The notes beneath the pieces are model-generated. The model did not search any database, was not told the origin of the DNA, and saw nothing but the letters and a program-made list of their open reading frames with translations. This document shows positions 23,204 through 45,102 of a stretch of 64,000 nt of DNA, in pieces. The translations under genes and the position numbers were made by a program. Origin of the DNA: Hyalangium gracile (GTDB lineage: Bacteria; Myxococcota; Myxococcia; Myxococcales; Myxococcaceae); the NCBI RefSeq assembly GCF_020103725.1, contig NZ_JAHXBG010000025.1, forward strand, positions 1 through 64,000, given 5' to 3'. Position 1 is the stretch's first letter. Each line of letters starts with the position of its first letter.

Positions 23204-25333
23204 TCAGGGCAGGCACTGCTTGAAGGCGTCGCTGGCCTGAGCCTTCTTGCAGGTGAGCCCGAGGGCGCAGTCCACGTCGTCCTTGCACCGGGTGGTCTGT
23301 GGGCAATCGCGGCCGGTGCCGTTGGACAGGCCGGAGACCTTGAACATGGAAGAGCTGACATCCTCGGTGATGAGGTTGTTGCCGATGATGCCTTGGGCCT
23401 CGTGTCGGAGGTCGATGCGATTGTTGCCAGAGGCGGTCGCGACGATGTCCAGGACGGTCCCGGGATCGATGTTGACCATGATCACATCACGTACGGCGCT
23501 CGTGCTCAAACCATCCGTGATGTCGATGCACTCACGCGTCTCTGTGGAGTTGCACGAGTTGTCCTTGTCGAACTCGAAGATGACCGGCAGGTGGATGCCG
23601 TCGCTCATGCCGAACCTGTCCCCGTCCTGGAACGATGCGCCCGTCATCGTTCCGATGTCGATGGTTCCGGTAGCGAACCGCGGGTTCTGATCCTGCATGC
23701 AGTCGGCGCTGCAGGTGCCGCAGGCGAGGGTGTTGCCATCGTCGCAGGCCTCGGGGCCGTCCTCGGATCCATCACCGCAGACCTTCGTCCCCATGAGGTT
23801 CAGCACCTGGCCGCAGTCGTTCCGGCAGGCCGTACAGGTGGCGCCGTAGGCACATGACACCTCGGTGGCGGTGTTGCCGTCGTCGCAGGCCTCGGGACCG
23901 TTCCGGATGCCGTCTCCACAGAAGGGACCCGTGAGGGACAGGTTCCCCGAGCAGGTGCTGTTGCACGCGGTGCAGGGCGTGTTGCCATACACGCAGGCCG
24001 TCTCGTTGACGGTGTTGCCGTCGTCACAGGTCTCGGGACCGTTCCTGAGGCTGTCACCGCAGTACTGCCCGCGGAGCGTCAGCGACACCTTGCAGTCCGC
24101 GCTGCAGCTGGGGCAGCTCGTGGACGGGTATGGGCACGCGGTCTCTGTGGTCTTGTTGCCGTCATCGCAGGCCTCCCCGTCGCTCGTGTCCCGGACGCCG
24201 TCGCCGCAGAAGGAGCCCGTCCGGGTCAGCACCGCGGTGCAGGTGCTGTTGCACGGGGAGCAGTCCTCGGTGCCGTAGGGGCACTCGTCCTCGCTCACCG
24301 TGTTCCCGTCGTCACAGGCCTCGACGGCGGAGTTCAGGATGCCATCGCCGCAGATGTTGTTCTTGCAGGTGTTGAGGCAGGCATCGCCGTCGCTCGTGTT
24401 GCCGTCGTCGCACTGCTCGTTCGCCACGGGGTTGGTGAAGGCGTCACCGCAGCGGCTGATCTTGCAGTTGGAGTTACAGGTGGCGGTGTTGACGACGGCG
24501 CCGTTGTCGCACTCCTCGCCGGCCAGCTTGTTCACGATGCCGTCGCCGCACACGGAGGGCGTGCAGTTGAGGTTGCAGACGACGGGCGGAGCCTGGGGCG
24601 TGGGGTCCGCGGGATCGCACGGCTCGGTGACGGGCGCCTGCCTGTCCGTGAAGCCGTCGCCGCAGCGCGCCACCTGGCACGTGTCGCGGCAGTCGTCGTG
24701 GTTGTCGGTGTTGCCGTCGTCGCACTCCTCGGTCGGGTCCAGGATGCCGTTGCCGCAGCCCTCGCCGGAGCGGCAGTTGGAGCTGCACCCGTCCCCGTCC
24801 ACGGTGTTGCCGTCGTCGCACACCTCGCCCACCGTGGTGTCCTTGATGTTGTTGCCACACACCTCGGCGGAGCGGCAGTTGGCGCTGCAGCCGTCCGAGT
24901 CTCGCGTGTTGCCGTCGTCGCACACCTCGCCCGCCGCGCGATCGACGAAGCCGTCTCCACACCGCTCCGAGGACTTGCAGTCCGCGCTGCAGCCGTCGCC
25001 GGAGGCCGTGTTGCCGTCGTCGCACACTTCGCCGGGGTCCTCCTTGCCGTTGCCGCAGGCCTCGTTGGACTTGCAGTCCGCGCTGCAGCCATCCCCGTCG
25101 CGGATGTTGCCGTCGTCACAGGACTCGTCGGACTGGACCACGCCGTCGCCGCAGGGCGTCTGCAGGCACTGCGTCCCATCTCCCGAGCAGCTCTGGCTCT
25201 CGGGGCAGACGAGGCCGGAGGGGCACGTCACGCTCTTGGGCTCGAAGCACGCGGACAGGGGCAGGACCAGGAGCACGAGCACCCACGTGGGCACGGCTCC
25301 ACGACGGACGAGGGAAGGGGTAGGGCGCATCAT
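23204..25333 (-). CDS. Cysteine-rich DUF4215-repeat lipoprotein (cassette A)
   Basis: A 709-residue protein with lipobox LSAC (C29). After an N-terminal CPSGLVCPESQSC knot, residues 61-545 are about 13 myxobacterial Cys-rich repeats of 35-45 residues, each with a CGDG start and ExCDDGNTxxGDGCSxxC core. The last about 165 residues form a separate domain ending in a Cys-rich knot (RCKDDVDCALGLTC). Such repeats are thought to form disulfide- and calcium-stabilised extracellular stalks. The start at 25333 follows GAGGTG. It is the third gene of a cassette with a TPR/PEGA protein and a kinase. It is homologous at both ends to the shorter protein at 31352-32761. Confidence 0.85.
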   Translation of the reverse strand: MMRPTPSLVRRGAVPTWVLVLLVLPLSACFEPKSVTCPSGLVCPESQSCSGDGTQCLQTPCGDGVVQSDESCDDGNIRDGDGCSADCKSNEACGNGKEDPGEVCDDGNTASGDGCSADCKSSERCGDGFVDRAAGEVCDDGNTRDSDGCSANCRSAEVCGNNIKDTTVGEVCDDGNTVDGDGCSSNCRSGEGCGNGILDPTEECDDGNTDNHDDCRDTCQVARCGDGFTDRQAPVTEPCDPADPTPQAPPVVCNLNCTPSVCGDGIVNKLAGEECDNGAVVNTATCNSNCKISRCGDAFTNPVANEQCDDGNTSDGDACLNTCKNNICGDGILNSAVEACDDGNTVSEDECPYGTEDCSPCNSTCTAVLTRTGSFCGDGVRDTSDGEACDDGNKTTETACPYPSTSCPSCSADCKVSLTLRGQYCGDSLRNGPETCDDGNTVNETACVYGNTPCTACNSTCSGNLSLTGPFCGDGIRNGPEACDDGNTATEVSCAYGATCTACRNDCGQVLNLMGTKVCGDGSEDGPEACDDGNTLACGTCSADCMQDQNPRFATGTIDIGTMTGASFQDGDRFGMSDGIHLPVIFEFDKDNSCNSTETRECIDITDGLSTSAVRDVIMVNIDPGTVLDIVATASGNNRIDLRHEAQGIIGNNLITEDVSSSMFKVSGLSNGTGRDCPQTTRCKDDVDCALGLTCKKAQASDAFKQCLP
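23699..25153 (-). repeat. Tandem Cys-rich repeat region inside the cassette A lipoprotein gene
   Basis: About 13 in-frame units of roughly 105-135 nt, visible at DNA level as recurrent GTTGCCGTCGTCGCA segments. Units near the 5' end of the gene are the most alike (ACGAxG..CDDGN..GDGCSADC). Units near the 3' end carry inserted segments of the CPYGT..C type. Such arrays can expand or contract by recombination. Confidence 0.8.
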
Positions 25334-25341
25334 CGGGCACC

Positions 25342-26376
25342 TCAGAAGCGGAACGTGGCCAGGACTCCACCCTCACCACCGCCCACGATGGGCGTGACGC
25401 TCACCGCTGGCGGCTCGGGCGTGGCGCTGGGGGCCTGCTCGAGCTCGTCCGGGGAGATGCGGTAGGGCTGGGCGCGGTTGACGTAGAGCAGCACCATGCC
25501 GGTGAGCAGCGCGGCGCCACCCGCGGCGTAGCTGCCCACCGCTACCTTCTGCAGCGTGTCCCCGCGCGAGCGCTTGCTGGCCAGCGAGTCGTCCGGCATG
25601 CAGCCGCCGCAGGACAGGACGCCCGCGTCGAAGCTGTCGAAGCTGTCGCGGGCCTGGAGGTGGAGCAGTCCGCCCCCCGCGGCCACGGCCGCCCCCGCGC
25701 CCAGCACCGCCCAGGACTTCCACGAGGCCCAGTGCCGCGTGTACCGCGTCAGCTCCTCGTCGGTGTAGAGCTTGATGGGCAGGGTGAGCTTCTCGCCGGG
25801 AGCCAGGGTGCGCTTGCGGTCGTTGCGCGGGTAGCCCTCCCGGGTGGCCGAGAAGGTGTGCGGACCGGGGACGACGAAGCCCTGGTGGCGGCCCGGCGCC
25901 TTGAAGAGCACCTGGCCGTTCATCATCACCGTGGTGCCCGGCACCTCGCAGGAGATGTCCACGTGGGACAGCTGCGACTCGACGAGCGTCTTGAAGGTAC
26001 GGGCCCGCTCGAACTTGTCGGCGTCGAGCGGCGCCTCGCCGTAGCGCATGGAGGCCACCAGGTGCGAGTGCAGCGCGATGGGCTCGTTGAGGTTCAGCAG
26101 GGCCAGCGCCATGTTGTAGTGGATGGCCGGGTGGTCCCAGAGCTTGAGGGCCTCGCGGTACTTCTCCACGGCCTTGGGGAAGAGGGAGTTCTTCAGCAGG
26201 AAGTTCCCATCCCGGAAGAGCGCGAGGGCGGCGGTCTGCTTGTCCTGCGGGACGCCCTTGGCCCAGGGCCGCTCCCCCGTGCCGAGCTCGGGCTGCTGCG
26301 CGGCCGCGGGCGTGGCCCCGAGCGTCACCAGCGCCAGCGCCACCATCAGACTGATCGTCAACCTGTTCATCTTCAC
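25342..26376 (-). CDS. TPR/PEGA membrane protein (cassette A)
   Basis: A 344-residue protein with a signal peptide (LMVALALVTLGATPAAAQ). A TPR-like region (about 45-140, including EKYREALKLWDHPAIHYNMA) is followed by a PEGA-type beta-sandwich (about 145-215: ISCEVPGTTVMMNGQVLF, then a GPHTFSATREGY core). Then come two membrane helices (about 228-250 and 290-312) joined by a loop containing SCGGCMP. The end is a short tail ATFRF. With a cleaved signal, the TPR and PEGA parts lie in the periplasm. It sits 12 nt after the kinase gene and 8 nt before the lipoprotein gene. The paralogue is at 32770-33774. Confidence 0.82.
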   Translation of the reverse strand: MKMNRLTISLMVALALVTLGATPAAAQQPELGTGERPWAKGVPQDKQTAALALFRDGNFLLKNSLFPKAVEKYREALKLWDHPAIHYNMALALLNLNEPIALHSHLVASMRYGEAPLDADKFERARTFKTLVESQLSHVDISCEVPGTTVMMNGQVLFKAPGRHQGFVVPGPHTFSATREGYPRNDRKRTLAPGEKLTLPIKLYTDEELTRYTRHWASWKSWAVLGAGAAVAAGGGLLHLQARDSFDSFDAGVLSCGGCMPDDSLASKRSRGDTLQKVAVGSYAAGGAALLTGMVLLYVNRAQPYRISPDELEQAPSATPEPPAVSVTPIVGGGEGGVLATFRF

Positions 26377-26388
26377 CCTGGCGGCCTC

Positions 26389-29412
<3,024 letters not shown>

Positions 29413-29444
29413 CTCGGGTGCATCCCCCCACTTGGCATGCAAGC

Positions 29445-29476
29445 GGGACATTTTCATGCAGTATGGGACACATTCA
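29445..29476 (-). promoter_or_regulatory. Candidate tandem operator upstream of cassette A kinase
   Basis: Two 12-nt direct copies, GGGACATTTTCA (29445-29456) and GGGACACATTCA (29465-29476) on the plus strand, match at 10 of 12 positions and begin exactly 20 nt apart, two helical turns. They lie 33-64 nt upstream of the chosen kinase start. A DNA-binding regulator site is a plausible reading. Confidence 0.4.
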
Positions 29477-29533: not shown

Positions 29534-31243
29534 TCACTGGCTCTCGAAGATGAGGGTGCGGTGGTTCTCGGTGTCCGTCACCACCAGGTAGGGCGCGGCC
29601 AGCAGGACACCACCGGGCGCGTAGAGGCTCCGGGCGCTCGGGATGGGGTCCTGGTCGGGGTCCTCGATGGGCGGATCACTGCGGGAGCGCGACGTGAGGT
29701 CCGGCTGCCCGAGGACGAGCTCCGCGGCGGCTCCATTATTCGTGGGAAACTGGTTCCACAGGGTAATGCGGTTGTTTCCGCGCTCGCTCACGAAGATCTG
29801 CTGGCCGGTGGAGTTGACGTTGTTGGGCGCGTTCATGCCGGTGGCGGAGGTGGCCGCGTCGGCGGTGGTGAAGCCCGGCTGGCCGAGGACGAGGTCCGCG
29901 GGCTGGCCATTCGTGGTGGGGAACGGGTTCCAGAGGAGCACGCGGTGGTTGCCGGTGTCGGCCACGAGGAGGCGTGTGCCATCCGTCCAGACGCCCTCGG
30001 GCCTGGAGAGCGTGGAGGCGGTGGGGGCTTCGGCGGAGGTGCCGTCCTGGTGGGCGTCGTTGGCGACGCAGGAGGTGAAGCCCGGCTGGCCGAGCACGAG
30101 GTCCGCCGCCGCGTTGTGCGAGGTGGGGAGCGTGTTCCAGATGAGGACGCGGTGGTTGTCGGTGTCCGCCACCACGAGCTTGCCCTGGACGAGGGACACC
30201 CCCGAGGGCGTCCGGAGCGAGCGCCTGTCACAGCGCGGAGAGATGTTGAGGAAGTCCGGCTGGCCGACGATGGCGTTCGCCGGGACGAAGGTGTCCTTGG
30301 GAGTCGAGAGGTGGACGACGACGCGGTTGTTGCCCCGGTCCGCCACCACCATGCGTCCTGCCTCGACGGCGATGGTCGCGGGCCTGGCGAGGCCCCGGGG
30401 CCCCGCGCTCTCGCTGTGGGGGAAGAAGTCGATCTGCCCGAGGAAGAAGCTGGCGCTTGGGCCGTTCGCCGTGGGCATGACATCGAACCCGACGATGCGG
30501 TGGTTGCCCGAGTCCGAGACGTAGAGCCGGCCCTCGACGAGCGTCGGGTGTCCCGCGGGACGGAACTGGGTGGTGTAGCCCGTCGAGTCTCCCTGGTTCG
30601 GCAGCCGGAGGGTGAAGTCGTTCTGCCCGAGGACGAGCTTCGCGGGTTGGAAGGTGGTGAGCGCGAACCAGGGCGTGCACTGGACGGTGATGTCGGTGAC
30701 GGGGCCCGCCACCGTGCCGCTGCCTCCCGTGAGGGCGCAGCGAAAGCCGCGCGGTGGAGTCCCCAAGGTGACCGTATAGGGGCTGCCTCGGGGCAGCTGC
30801 GTCTGGAAGGTGAAGGCGGAGGGCGCATCGACGGAGAGCGTCTCTCCGCTGTCGAGGGAGAGCTGGAGGGAGCCCGTCACCCCCGCCACCCGTCCGCCAA
30901 GCGTGTACGTCCGCCGCACGCAGGTGGCCTGGACCGAGTCCACGTCCGTGCCGGCGATGCGGCCCGAGGGGGCCTTCAGGGTACAGACCTGCTCCGCGGG
31001 AGCGGTGGTGATGGCCACCCGGTAGGGGTTCCCGTCGTCGATGGGAGTCTCGAAGAGGAACGGTCCACTCTGGCTCAGGGTGAGGCGCTCACCGGAGTTG
31101 AGCTGGAGGGTGATGCTGCCGTCGAGGCCGCTCACCGTGCCTCCGACGCGGAACTGGAGCGTCGGCTCGGAGTCCCCAGCTCCATCGCCGCACGAGGTGA
31201 GGAGTGCCGCCACTGCCACGAGCCCGAACCATCCGCTGCGCAT
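29534..31243 (-). CDS. Beta-propeller (NHL-repeat-like) lipoprotein
   Basis: A 569-residue protein with lipobox LLTSC (C18). Two or three small Ig-like modules come first (about 30-190; GTVSGLDGSITLQLNSGE and its copy GRVAGVTGSLQLSLDSGE). From about residue 200 there are six blades of a propeller, marked by LVLGQPxFT, then 'LxVADTxNHRVLIWN' segments typical of NHL repeats. Such propellers bind proteins or glycans outside the cell. The gene lies between the two kinase cassettes, 121 nt upstream of the kinase start on the same strand. It could belong to either unit or be independent. Confidence 0.8.
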   Translation of the reverse strand: MRSGWFGLVAVAALLTSCGDGAGDSEPTLQFRVGGTVSGLDGSITLQLNSGERLTLSQSGPFLFETPIDDGNPYRVAITTAPAEQVCTLKAPSGRIAGTDVDSVQATCVRRTYTLGGRVAGVTGSLQLSLDSGETLSVDAPSAFTFQTQLPRGSPYTVTLGTPPRGFRCALTGGSGTVAGPVTDITVQCTPWFALTTFQPAKLVLGQNDFTLRLPNQGDSTGYTTQFRPAGHPTLVEGRLYVSDSGNHRIVGFDVMPTANGPSASFFLGQIDFFPHSESAGPRGLARPATIAVEAGRMVVADRGNNRVVVHLSTPKDTFVPANAIVGQPDFLNISPRCDRRSLRTPSGVSLVQGKLVVADTDNHRVLIWNTLPTSHNAAADLVLGQPGFTSCVANDAHQDGTSAEAPTASTLSRPEGVWTDGTRLLVADTGNHRVLLWNPFPTTNGQPADLVLGQPGFTTADAATSATGMNAPNNVNSTGQQIFVSERGNNRITLWNQFPTNNGAAAELVLGQPDLTSRSRSDPPIEDPDQDPIPSARSLYAPGGVLLAAPYLVVTDTENHRTLIFESQ

Positions 31244-31351
31244 GCTGACGTCCCCTGGCCGGACAGAGGCTCCAGGAGCTTCCTGGAGACCCGGTCACGG
31301 TCCCCGACACAGTGGACTGTGCCACGCGGAGCACGGGCGCGGAAGGCGGGG

Positions 31352-32761
31352 TTACTTAGGCACACACCGTCTGTTGGTGCCGCACGTCAGATGGGACTTA
31401 CAGTCCTCCTTTCGATCGCACCTTGAACCCTCCTCACAAGAGAACCCCACACCCCCTGAGAGGTCTTCCACGGACAACGCCAGGGGATCGGTCGTGTTGA
31501 TGCGCTGATTGCCAGCGACTCCAGGATGGTAGTGGGTGAGTATCACGCTGCCTGACTGTGCTTGTGCGGATACAGCGAGCCAGTCCTTCTTATTAAAAGC
31601 TGCATTGACGGCGTCCCGGATGGCCGATGCCAATGTCTCACTTTCCCTGGACCAAGGCATCATGATGCAGCAATAACGGCGGTTCTCGTTGCCATAACAG
31701 CGTTTCTCGACCGTGCAATCCGCATGGAACATGAAGGTTATGGGAGGAGCCCAGCCGTCGCTGAAGATGAAGGACGTGCCCTCCGCGATGAGGTGAGGAG
31801 CTTTGACGGTGATCTTGCCTCGGGCCGGAGCAGGAGCGGCCCGTGTGCACTGACTCGTACAGGTGCCGCAGGCCTGGCCGAAATCGCAGTCCTCGGCTTG
31901 ATCCTGATGTTCATCGCCACAGTAGGCACCCTTGCGCATTTCCAGGGCACTGCAGGTGGCATTGCAGACGTAGCATGTCTTCGAGCCATAGGGACAAGTC
32001 ATTGAGCCATTCGCGGAACCGCTGTCGCACACCTCGCCGGAATCTTTCTCCCCATCACCACACGACGGCCCACGGAGAGTGAGTTCTCGCGAGCAGTTGG
32101 CGTTGCACATGGTGCAGTCCTTGGTCCCATAGGGACAGCTCGACTCGGTGACGGTATTCCCGTCATCGCAGGCTTCGTTCAGTGGATTTAGGTGGCCGTC
32201 GCCGCAGCGGTTCCATAGGCAGTTGGCGAGGCAGGGGCCCTCATTGCTGTGGTTTCCATCGTCGCACTCCTCTCCCTCCTCAATCTTTCCATTCCCGCAA
32301 AAGGCGATGAGGCAGTTCTGACTGCAGCGAAACCCCACTCGGTCTCCAGGTGGGTCGCACTCCTCTCTCGCATCGACGCTGTGGTTGCCGCACTCCGCCG
32401 AGCGCTTGCAGTCGGCACTGCACGTGTCCCCGTTCACGGTATTGCCGTCGTCGCATGCTTCTCCGGGGTCAGTCACACTGTTTCCGCACTGCTCGTCGGA
32501 GGTGCAGGTGCTGTTGCACCGGTCTCCACTCTGGAGGTTGCCGTCGTCGCAGGCTTCTCCTTCCTGGACGACGCCATCGCCGCAGGAGTTATTGATGCAC
32601 GCCTGGCCATCGGCGGAGCAGGCCCAGCCCGGGGGACAGACGAGGCCCGAGGAGCAGGTCTCGGTTGTGGACTTGGAGCAGGCTGGCACCGACAGCGCCA
32701 GGAGCACCAGCGCGGAGGCGAGGGCAACCTTATTGGGGGATGGGCTGTACAAGCGGATCAT
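31352..32761 (-). CDS. Cysteine-rich DUF4215-repeat lipoprotein (cassette B)
   Basis: A 469-residue protein. ATG 32761 is set by analogy with cassette A: both follow the same CTGAGGTGCCCG just before ATGAT. The lipid Cys is C28 (SVPAC). The N-terminal CSSGLVCPPGWAC knot matches the cassette A protein. Residues 60-305 hold about seven Cys-rich repeats against 13 there. The C-terminal 160-residue domain is divergent but keeps the SGGVGFSC..C..KEDCKSHLTC knot. Parts of the gene, especially 31500-32000, are visibly AT-richer than all neighbours, hinting at recent transfer or relaxed selection. Probable surface or periplasm-facing partner of the kinase unit. Confidence 0.82.
   Translation of the reverse strand: MIRLYSPSPNKVALASALVLLALSVPACSKSTTETCSSGLVCPPGWACSADGQACINNSCGDGVVQEGEACDDGNLQSGDRCNSTCTSDEQCGNSVTDPGEACDDGNTVNGDTCSADCKRSAECGNHSVDAREECDPPGDRVGFRCSQNCLIAFCGNGKIEEGEECDDGNHSNEGPCLANCLWNRCGDGHLNPLNEACDDGNTVTESSCPYGTKDCTMCNANCSRELTLRGPSCGDGEKDSGEVCDSGSANGSMTCPYGSKTCYVCNATCSALEMRKGAYCGDEHQDQAEDCDFGQACGTCTSQCTRAAPAPARGKITVKAPHLIAEGTSFIFSDGWAPPITFMFHADCTVEKRCYGNENRRYCCIMMPWSRESETLASAIRDAVNAAFNKKDWLAVSAQAQSGSVILTHYHPGVAGNQRINTTDPLALSVEDLSGGVGFSCEEGSRCDRKEDCKSHLTCGTNRRCVPK
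31847..32584 (-). repeat. Tandem Cys-rich repeat region inside the cassette B lipoprotein gene
   Basis: About seven in-frame units with the CGDG..ExCDDGN..C..C pattern. Several are degenerate (EECDPPGDRVG, EVCDSGSANG, EDCDFGQACG), so the array is less uniform than in cassette A. Confidence 0.75.
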
Positions 32762-32769
32762 CGGGCACC

Positions 32770-33774
32770 TCAGTAACGAAAGGTCATGACTGCACCAGGC
32801 TGATCTCCCAGCAGGGGCGCGATGTTGAGCTGCCGCTCGTGCTCGTCCGCCGTGAGATAGCGAGTCTGCTCTTGGTTGGCGTAGAGGAGGACCAGCCCCG
32901 TGAGCAGCGCTGCACCGCCCGCGATATAGGCCCCGGTTGCGCCCCGCTGGAGCTGATCCCCGCGGACGCGGAGGGCGGAAATCTCGGGGGCGGGCAGGCA
33001 GCCTCCGCAATCCCGGATGGCCTTGTCGAAGCGCTGGTGGCTATCATGCGCGCGGGTGTAGAGCCATCCGCCGCCCATGGCGAAGGCGGCTCCCCCCCCC
33101 AGCACGGCCCACGGCGCCCATACGGGCAACCACCGCTCGCCTCGCTTCAACTCATCGTCCGTGTACATCCGGAAATGGAGGGTGAGGTTCTCTCCTCGCC
33201 GCAGGGTCCGTCTCCGGGTGTTAAGCTCGGAGGAGTAGCCCTCCTTCCTGGCAACGAAGGTGTACTCGGCGGGAAGCACCCACCGCGTCAGGTGAGCGGG
33301 AGAGTGGCACAGGATCTCCTCTCCCGTCGTGACAGTGGCACCTGGGACATCGCAGATGATCTCCAGCTGCGCGAGCTGCTGCTCGACGAGTGTCTTGAGC
33401 TGCCTGGCTCGCTTCTGCTTTCCCTCATCCAGAGGCTTCCCGTCGTAGCGCAGCGCCGCCGTGAGGTGCGCATGGAGTTCGATGGGCATGTTGAGGTTCT
33501 GCAGCGCCATCGCCATGTTGTAGTGGATGGCAGGGTGATCCCAGTGCTGGAGCGCCTGTTGGTAGCGCTCCACGGCTTGGGCGAAGATCCCGTTTTGTGA
33601 CAGGGAGATGCCTTCGAGAAAGAGCCGCCTGGAGGACTGTCGAGCCTCCATGGGGACTCCATGTGCCCAGGCCCTTGTATCATCGACGTCCAGCTGGGGG
33701 GACTGTGCGAACGCGGGCGCCATTCCTAGAGCGAGGAGGGCCGCGAGGACATGGGGAAATCTGTTCGTCTTCAT
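32770..33774 (-). CDS. TPR/PEGA membrane protein (cassette B)
   Basis: A 334-residue paralogue of the product of 25342-26376, with the same order of parts. There is a signal peptide (VLAALLALGMAPAFAQ), a TPR-like region (VERYQQALQHWDHPAIHYNM), a PEGA-like sandwich and a Trp-rich first helix (WLPVWAPWAVLGGGAAFAM). A loop with DCGGCLP and a second helix (GGAALLTGLVLLYANQ) follow, and the tail ends MTFRY. The CGGC pair and the aromatic C-terminal end are kept in both copies although the rest has diverged, so they are probably functional. It sits 12 nt after the kinase gene and 8 nt before the Cys-rich gene. Confidence 0.82.
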   Translation of the reverse strand: MKTNRFPHVLAALLALGMAPAFAQSPQLDVDDTRAWAHGVPMEARQSSRRLFLEGISLSQNGIFAQAVERYQQALQHWDHPAIHYNMAMALQNLNMPIELHAHLTAALRYDGKPLDEGKQKRARQLKTLVEQQLAQLEIICDVPGATVTTGEEILCHSPAHLTRWVLPAEYTFVARKEGYSSELNTRRRTLRRGENLTLHFRMYTDDELKRGERWLPVWAPWAVLGGGAAFAMGGGWLYTRAHDSHQRFDKAIRDCGGCLPAPEISALRVRGDQLQRGATGAYIAGGAALLTGLVLLYANQEQTRYLTADEHERQLNIAPLLGDQPGAVMTFRY

Positions 33775-33786
33775 CCCGTCTCCTCT

Positions 33787-36666
<2,880 letters not shown>

Positions 36667-42146: not shown

Positions 42147-42905
42147 TCAGCGCGGAGCGACGCGCCCGCCGATCTCCGGGAAGCGCTCGTAGGCCCGCTT
42201 CAGCGCGTCCAAGTGGGTGGGGTCGTCGTAATCGAGGGGGGCATCCGTGAGTTGCACGACCCATCCGCCCGAAGGCGTGCGCCGCGCCCGCGTGAGCAAC
42301 TCCGCGTCGCGAGCAGGATCCGGGAACCCGATGGCCTGCGCGGCAGCGGCCGACCAGTAGTTCAGCCACCCAAGGCACCAGGGAATCTCAGGCGCGGAGA
42401 GCTTCTGTGGAAGGTTGAGCATGGGAAGCCCACGCGGTGAGAACTCTGGTGCATGAGTCGAGCGGCGGACCTGCTCCGCGACTTTCGAGCCGAAACCGTA
42501 CGGCGACGCATGCCCCCAGAACGCGCGGGCACCATCCGCCACGCCCTCGAGCACAGCCGCCGCTGCCGCGATCACGGGCTCGTCCAGTGGCAGTTCTGCA
42601 TGCACTTCAGACAGGGACTGACCGCCTGGGCTGAGGAGTCCAGGTCTTCCCCTCCCGTTGACCGTGACGGGGTAACTCTCGTCCCCGTTGCACAGAAGAG
42701 GGAATTTCCCGTCCTGCGTCCTTTCCACGAGCCACGCATCGCGCTGCGGCAATGCGATGGGGCGTGCTCCTTTGCCTACTTCCCACTCCAGGCGCAGGCC
42801 GGGGAGCGCCTCTTCCATCCCATGGACGACAGCGAGCGTGCGGCTGTCTTTGCCCACGAGCGCAGGCGCGTAGACAATGAGGGTGAGGGCTCTAGGTCTG
42901 GTCAT
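42147..42905 (-). CDS. Probable immunity protein (DUF5953-like)
   Basis: A 252-residue cytoplasmic-type protein. ATG 42905 overlaps the stop of the upstream toxin gene as ATGA; a GTG nine bases earlier is less likely. The sequence (ALTLIVYAPALVGKDSRTLA.., LPQRDAWLVERTQDGKFPLL, WCLGWLNYWSAAAAQAIGFP) resembles the myxobacterial DUF5953 family, which recurs downstream of lipoprotein toxins; the family name is from memory. No enzyme motif is seen. Position, tight coupling and lack of a signal support an immunity role: binding the toxin in the cytoplasm. It converges with the phosphatase gene. Confidence 0.65.
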   Translation of the reverse strand: MTRPRALTLIVYAPALVGKDSRTLAVVHGMEEALPGLRLEWEVGKGARPIALPQRDAWLVERTQDGKFPLLCNGDESYPVTVNGRGRPGLLSPGGQSLSEVHAELPLDEPVIAAAAAVLEGVADGARAFWGHASPYGFGSKVAEQVRRSTHAPEFSPRGLPMLNLPQKLSAPEIPWCLGWLNYWSAAAAQAIGFPDPARDAELLTRARRTPSGGWVVQLTDAPLDYDDPTHLDALKRAYERFPEIGGRVAPR

Positions 42906-43816
42906 CGTCTGCACCCCGTGACGACGACATCAAGTGAGAAATCCGCCTCGAGCAGCGCGTCTTTGTGCGCTTGGGTGCTCACCCCGATGATGAAGTCATA
43001 TCCACATGCCTCCGCGGTTCTTCGCTCCCTTTGTATTTGCTCCAACTCCTTCTCGAGCTCTCGCCTCCGGATGAAGTCAGGATATGTGTCAAATCGATGT
43101 GTTTTGATCTCCCACAGCACGCGCACGCCGACTTGCAGAGCATCGAATCGCTCACCGCCCACGAATACGTCCATGCCGGGATAGCGGTTGGGCGGAAACC
43201 TATCGGCGCACTCGTTATGCGGGACATCCTGGCCCGCGTGCCGCACCGGGATTGGCTTGCACTCCGGGGGCTCCCTGGGATCGGATGGTATGGGCGGGAA
43301 GGTGTCTCCGGTCGGTGAGCCCTTTGGCTTCGGCGCTCGGTTCGCCAAAGGTTCTTTCGCAGGCCGCGTTTGAGTCTTGGGCTTCGCACGCTCACGGGCT
43401 GCGTTCCGCTGGTAAACATCAATCCCCTCTTGTATGGCGGCTGCAACCACCACCGCGCCAATCACAACCACTGCTCCGGTTACGACTGCCGGTGACGCAA
43501 AGATACAGAGGGCCACGGCCGCGGGAACTGCTGCGGCCGCGGGGGCAGAGGCGACAGCGCATTTCCCGGTGACATCACGAAACCTGACCCTGTCGCGGTC
43601 GAGAGTGTGAAAGCACCTCTCCGCCAGGATAGGCCATTCGTTAGAGGCTTCGCGCACGACGCAATGCCCGTCATCCGTCCAGGGGTACTCCGCTGCCCGC
43701 TGAAGGTTGGCGTACCTCGGACTCGGGTCCTCCCACTCTCCCGGGCTCGCATCCATCGTGGCGCAGGCCGAGAGAAGGAGCAGGAACAGGGGGGCGCCGC
43801 ACGTTCGCTGGAGCAT
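42902..43816 (-). CDS. SitA-like lipoprotein toxin with PD-(D/E)xK nuclease domain (DUF6310-like)
   Basis: A 304-residue protein. ATG 43816 follows AAAGGA by 6 nt; the TTG five codons upstream would overlap that site. The lipobox is LLSAC (C18). The N-terminal half (WTDDGHCVVREASNEWPILA, RVRFRDVTGKCAVAS, then a hydrophobic region near 92-129) fits the conserved carrier part of myxobacterial SitA lipoprotein toxins. A Pro/Lys linker leads to a C-terminal domain with ERFDALQ..LWEIKT (D225, E236, K238), a PD-(D/E)xK nuclease pattern. SitA toxins pass between cells by outer-membrane exchange. The role here is inferred; DUF6310 is the likely family name. Confidence 0.7.
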   Translation of the reverse strand: MLQRTCGAPLFLLLLSACATMDASPGEWEDPSPRYANLQRAAEYPWTDDGHCVVREASNEWPILAERCFHTLDRDRVRFRDVTGKCAVASAPAAAAVPAAVALCIFASPAVVTGAVVVIGAVVVAAAIQEGIDVYQRNAARERAKPKTQTRPAKEPLANRAPKPKGSPTGDTFPPIPSDPREPPECKPIPVRHAGQDVPHNECADRFPPNRYPGMDVFVGGERFDALQVGVRVLWEIKTHRFDTYPDFIRRRELEKELEQIQRERRTAEACGYDFIIGVSTQAHKDALLEADFSLDVVVTGCRR

Positions 43817-44040
43817 GGAAGGTCCTTTCAATCAAGCGAGGTGCTGCGGGTCAAGGCTACGCCGGTTCTCCGCTGGAGCGGATCAGCACGCCCCGGCAGC
43901 GAGAGCCGATGGAGGAGCGCCCGCGTCCGACAGCTCCGCCCATGGGAGGCGCGCTCCCGGACGGCCTCTTCATATGCGCTTCACCTCCCCGGCCTCCTGC
44001 TACTTGCCCACTCGTGCAACCAAGGGCTCCCCGCGAGTTG

Positions 44041-44424
44041 GTGACACACTCGCTTGCCCGCTACCACTCACGAAATGAGGCGCACTCCCCCGCAGTGCTC
44101 GCTGTTCTCACTACCGTCGCCGCGCTCGTGGTCCCCAGGCTCCAAGCCATTGCAGTGGCAGTTGGCATCCTCACCCCCGCCGTGGCGATCTTCACCCTCA
44201 TCCTCCGGACGTTCCGCACTGCCGCTCACCGCCGCTGGACTGAGCAACAGGAGGACGTTCTTCGCGAAGGTGGCCGTAGCTTCAAGCTTCAGGTGCTCCG
44301 CAAGGACCGTGCATCTCTTCAGTGGGCAAGCGCTGAAGGGCGCCTGCTCGTCACGAAGGACGCCCCTTGGGGTTGGTATGTCGTGCTCGAGACCAAACTC
44401 CCACCGAAGAGCCCAGGCACTTGA
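44041..44424 (+). CDS. Small two-helix membrane protein (uncertain)
   Basis: A possible 127-residue protein from GTG 44041; GTG 44095 and an open frame back to 43909 are alternatives. Residues 18-52 form two hydrophobic segments (AVLAVLTTVAALVVPRLQAI, VAVGILTPAVAIFTLIL). A basic soluble tail follows (HRRWTEQQEDVLREGGRSFK.., WASAEGRLLVTKDAPWGWYV). Codon use is less G/C-ending than in neighbours. No family recognised. It is adjacent to, but on the opposite strand from, the toxin gene, so it may be a leftover of toxin-locus turnover. The same frame stays open after the stop to 44640. Confidence 0.4.
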   Translation: MTHSLARYHSRNEAHSPAVLAVLTTVAALVVPRLQAIAVAVGILTPAVAIFTLILRTFRTAAHRRWTEQQEDVLREGGRSFKLQVLRKDRASLQWASAEGRLLVTKDAPWGWYVVLETKLPPKSPGT

Positions 44425-44484
44425 GACTCTGATGCGAGAAGCACCCTCTACAGGGCTGTTTTGCATCTCAAGCGGGAGGTGACG

Positions 44485-44640
44485 GTGGAACTGCTGGCCG
44501 CTTGGTGCGAGCACGCCAGCCAGCCTGATGAGGGGCTGCTGCTCAATGCCAGTTCTTCGTTGAGCGATGAGGCACGCTGGCAGGAGGAGCGCACCCAGTG
44601 GGTCGAGCGGGAGTACGACCTGCTGAGACTGGCGGTATGA
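44485..44640 (+). CDS. Short orphan reading frame or gene remnant
   Basis: Fifty-one codons from GTG 44485, with GGGAGG 6 nt upstream, encoding MELLAAWCEHASQPDEGLLL and a Trp/Glu-rich amphipathic rest ending YDLLRLAV. The frame is open back to 44425 and directly continues the preceding gene after its TGA, so a single interrupted gene is also possible. Codon use and composition look protein-like. Family unknown. Confidence 0.3.
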   Translation: MELLAAWCEHASQPDEGLLLNASSSLSDEARWQEERTQWVEREYDLLRLAV

Positions 44641-45102
44641 GGAGCAGACCGGCCCGGCCACATGCCGCTGCTGGTGGCATGGGAGAAGGTCTTCCTGGGG
44701 CTGGCAGCAGCTCTGCTGCCGGCGCTGCTCAAGGCCGCCGATGAGCCGCTGCTCGACCGCCGGCTCCGGTGCGCGACGCACGCACCGCCCCCGAGTCCCC
44801 GCCGCCTGCCGGGGAGCAGCCCGTGTCGGGCCAGAACGCCAGCAACTGGTATGCTTGTCATACCAGTTCGCAACCAGTCGGGCCGACAGGCGGCGGCCAG
44901 GGCCACGAGGAGCGGGGCGCCAATGTGTGTGCCACTTCGAGAGTGGGTTGGCACACGGCCGGTGTGGCAGCCCCTGGCCGCAGGGCCATGGCGCCGGCGC
45001 CCGAGATAGGCATGATGCGTCGGGAAAGGTGTCGGAACTCGCGCGTCAGGGTTGACGTGGCGGGGAGGAGTGCCGACCTTGCCTCCCCACTACCCACTCC
45101 TT
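44641..45102. other. Gap of 462 nt with palindrome copy 3 and a decayed frame
   Basis: No convincing complete gene. From 44662 about 36 codons (MPLLVAWEKVFLGLAAALLP, continuing KAADEPLLDRRLR) have good third-position G/C and look coding. The rest of that frame loses this pattern and runs through the palindromic element at 44844-44868. This fits a truncated gene. The last 100 nt before nrfH probably carry its promoter; a TTGACG lies at 45052-45057. Confidence 0.45.
44844..44868. repeat. Dispersed palindromic element, copy 3 (perfect 10-bp arms)
   Basis: AACTGGTATG - CTTGT - CATACCAGTT, a perfect 10-bp inverted repeat with the same 5-nt spacer as copies 1 and 2. Unlike those, it is not between two convergent gene ends but in the decayed gap before nrfH. 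Confidence 0.75.

Follow-up and report, generated by a model that had tools for sequence, protein, structure and literature searches.

Here, we analyze lipB, a lipoprotein gene in a 64-kb stretch of DNA (hereafter, the window) from the 11.7-Mb genome of Hyalangium gracile. On balance, its product is best read as the short-stalk form of a lipoprotein that belongs to a three-gene cassette conserved in myxobacteria, which would signal across the cell envelope. No other folded domain of the cassette evolves as fast as the C-terminal domain of the lipoprotein, here called the head, whose rate is roughly ten times that of the kinase core, and this is equally so in both cassettes of the window, A and B. 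Short stalk and low third-position GC (GC3) go together as a class, and the oddities of lipB are traits of that class. The modelled head has the fold seen in outer domains of phage tail sheaths, flagellin and FliD.

lipB is the third gene in the row kinB-tprB-lipB (Table 1). The paralogous row kinA-tprA-lipA (cassette A) comes after it, and a gene for an NHL-repeat lipoprotein sits between cassettes B and A. The order kinase-TPR-lipoprotein recurs in Hyalangium, Corallococcus, Myxococcus, Archangium, Pyxidicoccus and Kofleriaceae/delta MAGs. The NHL-repeat gene (29534-31243) adjoins cassette A in relatives as well, and H. versicolor has three copies around its cassette A (L044). In genome G002, a kinase-like ORF with ~30% identity to the cassette kinases lies on the opposite strand between cassettes B and A (L042:8758-9783). 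The genome that contains the window also encodes two ~600 aa DUF4215 proteins with nearly identical C-terminal ends (L054:4209-6029 and L055:8347-10131), which no three-gene cassette adjoins in the stretches read.

Table 1. Features of cassettes A and B in the window
Feature	Position	Strand	Basis or remark
lipB, DUF4215-repeat lipoprotein of cassette B, 469 aa	31352..32761	-	ATG start 8 bases after tprB end
lipB signal peptide and lipobox VPA/C28, +2 Ser, +7 Glu	32678..32761	-	Translation, pattern
lipB N-terminal cysteine knot	32585..32680	-	Read off translation; similar segment in lipA
lipB stalk, 7 DUF4215/TIGR02232 units, last unit truncated	31835..32584	-	Translation, regex, profiles
lipB head, tail-sheath/flagellin-type fold (modelled)	31457..31834	-	Model, structure and profile searches
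lipB C-terminal five-cysteine knot, knottin-like	31355..31456	-	Model, structure and profile searches
tprB: TPR helices, seven-strand segment, two long helices	32770..33774	-	Profiles, model
kinB: Ser/Thr kinase, nSTAND1 NTPase, one TM helix, ~145 residues beyond	33787..36666	-	
Low third-position-GC stretch: kinB 3' end, tprB, lipB	31352..34030	-	
lipA, long-stalk paralogue, 709 aa, 13 units	23204..25333	-	
tprA	25342..26376	-	
kinA, kinase, nSTAND1, TM and C-terminal tail	26389..29457	-	

The first-pass annotation had given lipB about half the repeats of lipA, and this was correct: 13 units are counted on the translation of lipA and 7 on that of lipB, a regex count agrees, and the TIGR02232 profile matches 11 and 6 stretches, respectively. 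lipB lies above the curated cut-offs for DUF4215 (51.0 bits; cut-off, 27) and TIGR02232 (85.2 bits; cut-off, 20.8), and kinB above those of Pfam for nSTAND1 (385.5 bits; cut-off, 27.1) and Pkinase (147.7 bits; cut-off, 31.7). A Pfam scan of the cassette proteins at E up to 0.01 detected no further effector or adaptor domain. The ~145 residues after the TM helix of kinB are predicted to form a coiled coil. tprB starts with a putative signal peptide, and its model has, after the TPRs, a seven-strand segment that appears PEGA-like, with no PEGA match in Pfam, and two long helices that would form a transmembrane hairpin; among the matches listed in a structure look-up of this model, mainly the TPR part was covered. 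The five-cysteine knot at the end of lipB is conserved, consistent with the initial description of a conserved C-terminal end, and the lipB head has extra cysteines in common with the B heads of G002 and H. versicolor.

The DNA at lipB had been described as locally AT-richer, and it is indeed the lowest-GC stretch of the window. GC has its minimum of 0.565 in the 400-base window 31400-31799, with surroundings of ~0.70, and all 8 of the 631 one-kb windows over the 64 kb with a GC <0.62 start at 31001-31701 (mean, 0.697; SD, 0.027). Because GC1 and GC2 are about equal in lipB (0.55/0.55) and lipA (0.56/0.54), the dip reflects codon usage and not protein composition, which rules out amino-acid composition as the source of the low GC. 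GC3 in lipB is 0.713 vs. 0.928 expected from the amino acids (z −18.0), and in lipA 0.911 vs. 0.924 (z −1.3). The deviation is shared by tprB (0.783 vs. 0.930; z −10.5) and by the last ~80 codons of kinB (z to −8.0), to which the fall in this gene is confined (0.908 vs. 0.934 for all of kinB; z −3.2), so that the odd stretch extends from ~34.0 to 31.35 kb and is wider than first stated. GC3 is not low in tprA (z +2.2) and kinA (z +4.3). Thus, lipB is compositionally odd, as had been claimed, in its GC3; the oddity is purely synonymous and is not confined to lipB. A second low-GC3 patch, unrelated to the cassettes, consists of three minus-strand ORFs at 42147-44781 (GC3 0.69-0.76; z −11 to −17).

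We assembled a set of 42 kinase-TPR-lipoprotein cassettes, drawn from relatives and from named genomes; 33 entered the comparison after removal of 8 distant rows (Delta, Kofleriaceae or Myxococcales MAGs or Sorangium) and 1 truncated MAG row. Across the 33 cassettes, the number of repeat units correlates with the GC3 of the lipoprotein gene (Spearman 0.90). With 6-11 units, GC3 is 0.58-0.76 in 11 of 12 cases; with 13-22 units, it is 0.80-0.98 in 21 of 21. The exception is from Myxococcus dinghuensis (Mding_L078; 11 units; GC3 0.93), and its sister L120 is also exceptional (10 units; GC3 0.92). From a second sample of 40 stretches, we removed 6 repeats of known loci and 4 without parsable head or units, and the remaining 30 lipoproteins, all new to the analysis, gave a Spearman correlation of 0.87. 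Among these, GC3 is <0.80 in 10 of 15 that have no more than 11 units (10 of 11 next to a TPR gene and 0 of 4 lacking one there), in all 3 with 12 units, and in none of the 12 with 13 or more. The 11-unit cut was chosen after the gap between 11 and 13 had been seen, and the three 12-unit cassettes of the second sample act like short ones. In each of the 14 genomes in which both were read, the short cassette is lower in GC3 than the long one. Four head-bearing lipoproteins with 9-11 units (L113, L114, L115 and L117) have a GC3 of 0.82-0.89, unlike the cassette-borne short ones, and no TPR or kinase partner within the fetched stretch (~7 kb each).

Few independent events underlie the link between short stalk and low GC3. 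When 55 cassettes are placed on a kinase tree, the short state (at most 12 units) occupies three clades and hence changes 3 times; low GC3 changes 4 times, and an independent-pairs test on this tree has too few pairs to reach 0.05. Along 12 short-type rows, median GC3 is 0.93 in the kinase domain, 0.90 in nSTAND, 0.83 in the tail, 0.80 in the TPR gene, 0.70 in the stalk and 0.67 in the head. A conserved-site codon effect in the kinase gene of short types (0.90 vs. 0.84) is real but small and does not explain this gradient. We suggest that the short types are accessory paralogues that may have drifted from the codon usage of the genome, and that the conserved kinase core would have kept its codon usage through constraint, perhaps also through gene conversion with the long-stalk copy. 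The relation of stalk length to codon usage held in the second sample.

The head diverges far more than the rest of the cassette, as is evident in genome collections with one genome per species. The head of cassette A of the window is 35-37% identical to those of six species of its genus, for which the kinase domain is at 83-86% and nSTAND at 90-91%; for cassette B vs. that of H. versicolor, the values are 39%, 81% and 88%. Between genomes G001 and G004, identity is 96% in the kinase, 97% in nSTAND, 90% in the TPR protein and 58% in the head. The heads of lipB and lipA are 28% identical, in agreement with the strongly diverged C-terminal domain noted at first. In codon models for Corallococcus, omega is 0.221 in the head, 0.214 in the C-terminal knot, 0.097 in the TPR protein and 0.093 in the last repeats (11 genomes), and 0.064 in the TM helix and tail, 0.052 in the kinase and 0.029 in nSTAND (8 genomes). 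In four genomes of the genus of the window, it is 0.107 in the head, 0.055 in the TPR protein, 0.020 in the kinase and 0.011 in nSTAND, and the kinase N-terminal linker, at 0.239, lies above the head; in this set, the signal peptide, N-terminal knot and most repeats were analyzed as one partition, and "repeats" denotes a 19-codon slice at the stalk end. The ratio of head to kinase-core distance, which is rough because head distances are long, is 9.6 for Hyalangium A (21 pairs), 9.5 for B (3 pairs), 23.7 for C (1 pair) and 5.7 for Corallococcus A (3 pairs). Mis-split rows were left out of the pairwise comparison (G003-G005 for head and knot, G033-G013 for TPR and N-terminal parts, and the Hyalangium C kinase). 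Thus, the three genes diverge unequally and the proposal of a fast head beside a constant kinase is right, but the trait is not special to cassette B. The NHL-repeat lipoprotein is also fast-evolving; its identity is higher than that of the head in the usable pairs compared.

Positive selection on the head was not detected. M2a was no better than M1a in either genome set, and an omega of 1 for the whole head was rejected in the four genomes of the genus of the window (2dl 84.7), so that diversifying selection is not upheld. About a third of the head codons in Corallococcus, and about a fifth in the four genomes, fall into the neutral class. The 19-codon slice gave a 2dl of 6.49 for M2a vs. M1a; this is one of several small partitions, and we draw no conclusion from it. 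Across the 24 heads compared, variability is highest in stretches that include the loop preceding the helix and the one that joins strands 1 and 2.

The annotation had also offered the reading of a polymorphic recognition part that is swapped or evolves quickly beside a constant kinase; for the lipoprotein, or for its head alone, this would mean import from another source or diversification. A head that is 35-39% identical where the kinase domain is 81-86% identical, and a GC that is locally low at lipB, are what such a reading would lead one to expect; nevertheless, we consider it unlikely. A kinase tree unites the B copies from the window, H. versicolor, G002 and G020 in one clade (94), with the C copies as its sister group (99) and the A copies in a clade of their own (98). 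G020 has a B-type cassette likewise after RNB, and in H. versicolor (G006, strain H56D21) the B cassette is on a different contig. The B clade across genomes and the RNB-linked B-type cassette in G020 indicate that B is an old duplicate. As for the heads, those of type B from three genomes fall together in a clade (97), constraining the G020 head with them gave a better tree (AU p 0.68), and co-inheritance was not rejected for A heads (AU p 0.14) or C heads (AU p 0.43). The low GC3 is common to tprB and the end of kinB and recurs in 11 of 12 and then 10 of 11 short-stalk cassettes, so it is not supported as a mark of a foreign head. Nor, as stated above, does M2a improve on M1a for the head. 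All cassette trees are quick trees, and that of the TPR protein rejects a single Hyalangium A clade (p 0.02), which hints that parts of the cassette may at times have been exchanged. A recent swap of lipB is thus set aside as the leading reading, and a foreign origin of the whole cassette is unlikely given the near-native GC3 of the kinase core and a B clade common to two genera. The nSTAND sequence of tandem cassette kinases may be exchanged by gene conversion: the signal between kinA and kinB is weak (P 50/2000) and that for G020 A/B (1/2000) and G033 A/C (0/2000) is strong, with one cross-genome control also positive (0/2000).

It also seems improbable that cassette B is a decaying extra copy that, under relaxed constraint, is shedding repeats and codon bias. 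Such decay would account for the low GC3 and the few repeats, and the B type was not found in G001, G003, G004 and G005, where the order at this locus is RNB-NHL-cassette A and each genome has one short cassette elsewhere that groups with the C copies (85). However, none of the three B frames is interrupted in either the window or H. versicolor, the knot cysteines are retained, short cassettes are retained in several genera, and the dN/dS of the B pair is 0.16 for nSTAND, 0.24 for the TPR protein and 0.53 for the head.

No Pfam or NCBIfam family covers the head, and Pfam run over 24 heads gave scattered single matches only, e.g., Flagellin_IN in one (E 0.026). An AlphaFold2 model of the head from 24 natural sequences has a mean pLDDT of 92.6, and its best structural neighbour is 8kee_A (Z 9.6; rmsd 2.3 over 91 residues). 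Among the matches listed, 12 reach a Z of at least 8, and each of these comes from a phage tail or connector; below Z 8 follow flagellin, FliD and further phage tails, e.g., 4nx9 (FliC; Z 7.7) and 6iwy (FliD; Z 7.5). With Foldseek alone, two chains reach E 0.001, both of the 8kee sheath. The tail sheath family phrog_165 (PHROG 165) matches 16 of the 24 heads at E up to 0.1, with a best E of 1.9e-7 and an E of only 0.032 for the head of lipB itself; a PDB profile search with the head gave a best sheath match at E 0.09, and one head searched by tblastn against phage records had no match at E 0.1. The final ~30 residues give matches to knottins (e.g., EETI-II) but contain five cysteines instead of six. 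In two Sorangium proteins encoded near a TPR gene (L092:10666-13536 and L093:4195-6630), a few DUF4215 units are joined to a long WGSGP repeat array, which stands where the sheath-type head would be. A similarity of a sheath insertion domain to FliD D3 is published (PMC10457771). The literature that we searched contained nothing on a sheath-type head on a lipoprotein, which is no proof of absence, and no mention of DUF4215, TIGR02232, myxo_disulf_rpt or PF13948; what we put forward as new is the head fold together with the stalk classes.

Because the fold of the head is that of exposed flagellin and sheath domains, one might suppose that phages or predators grip the head as a handle and thereby drive its change, as they may do with the outer domains of flagellin, and that signalling is secondary. 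About a third of the head codons act neutral in Corallococcus, and the four head-bearing lipoproteins without a kinase partner in the fetched stretch weaken the argument for signalling. However, no positively selected class was found, and in most cassettes read a kinase gene lies in the same row, which favours signalling; the handle reading is a quite remote prospect.

In M. xanthus, +2 Lys is reported as the inner-membrane signal of lipoproteins and +7 Ala as the matrix signal (PMC3222651). Of 41 lipoproteins, 37 have a lipobox by pattern, among which +2 Lys occurs in 0 and +7 Ala in 3. With +2 Ser and +7 Glu, lipB has neither signal of the M. xanthus rule; its lipobox without an inner-membrane signal is as for an outer-membrane lipoprotein, and, judged from its sequence, lipB is probably on the cell surface. 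Taken together, the lipobox, stalk and head, the TPR hairpin in the model, the TM helix of the kinase and the lack of an inner-membrane signal suggest a sensor in the outer membrane, an adaptor in the inner membrane and a kinase. We suggest that the lipoprotein, with its stalk and head, stands in the outer membrane, where the head would meet a variable outside partner. The TPR protein may act as an inner-membrane adaptor that relays the state of the head to the STAND-kinase, which would have its tail in the periplasm and fire on the relayed state. The head would tolerate or follow changes in the partner, and the machinery inside would stay fixed.

To our knowledge, the inputs of most myxobacterial Ser/Thr kinases are not known. 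Here, a likely input part of a kinase is named, in a gene order that is conserved across several genera, and the fold of this part is otherwise known from phage tails and flagella, which opens the input to bench work. Myxobacteria have many Ser/Thr kinases (PMC2887360).

Among known systems, the cassette invites comparison with TraA, the kin-recognition receptor of myxobacteria (PMC6372800). Each system combines otherwise conserved components with a surface protein that has cysteine-rich repeats and a single domain that varies fast. However, in TraA the variable domain is N-terminal, MYXO-CTERM is C-terminal and the partner is TraB (PMC6372800), whereas here the order is reversed, from an N-terminal lipid through a stalk to a C-terminal head, with a TPR protein and a STAND kinase as partners. 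The variable domain of TraA is itself only a distant PA14 relative (PMC6372800); lipB has no PA14 match in Pfam, and its repeats directly follow the lipobox and N-terminal knot. An NCBIfam scan of lipA and lipB at E up to 1 gave TIGR02232 only and no MYXO-CTERM, a motif found at 16 places elsewhere in the genome. Nor is there a traB in the operon, which has the TPR protein and kinase upstream and the NHL protein downstream, with no OmpA or thrombospondin match in Pfam. A bold reading, to which we attach little probability, is that the cassette is a surface recognition system and an upside-down TraA, in which a domain of tail-sheath/flagellin ancestry serves as the exposed head of a stalked lipoprotein, a STAND-kinase reads binding of kin, prey or phage, and long and short stalks, their length set by repeat number, listen at different distances from the cell surface.

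The phage tail-sheath insertion domain, flagellin D2-D3 and the FliD outer domains have a head fold alike (Z 9.6 to ~7); here, by contrast, it is a single domain on a lipoprotein stalk, and scans of lipA and lipB (Pfam, NCBIfam) gave no match to the core domain of a sheath, tube or filament. Anti-phage defence was considered and set aside. The PADLOC matches of the two kinases lie mostly over the kinase domain (best 25 of 35 and best 25 of 36) and are, therefore, read as generic kinase matches, and PADLOC gave none for the TPR protein or the lipoproteins. The cassette kinase does share its nSTAND1 module with NTPases of predicted conflict systems (PMC8195603); in contrast to those systems, nSTAND1 here forms one protein with a Ser/Thr kinase and a TM tail and is encoded with an envelope lipoprotein.
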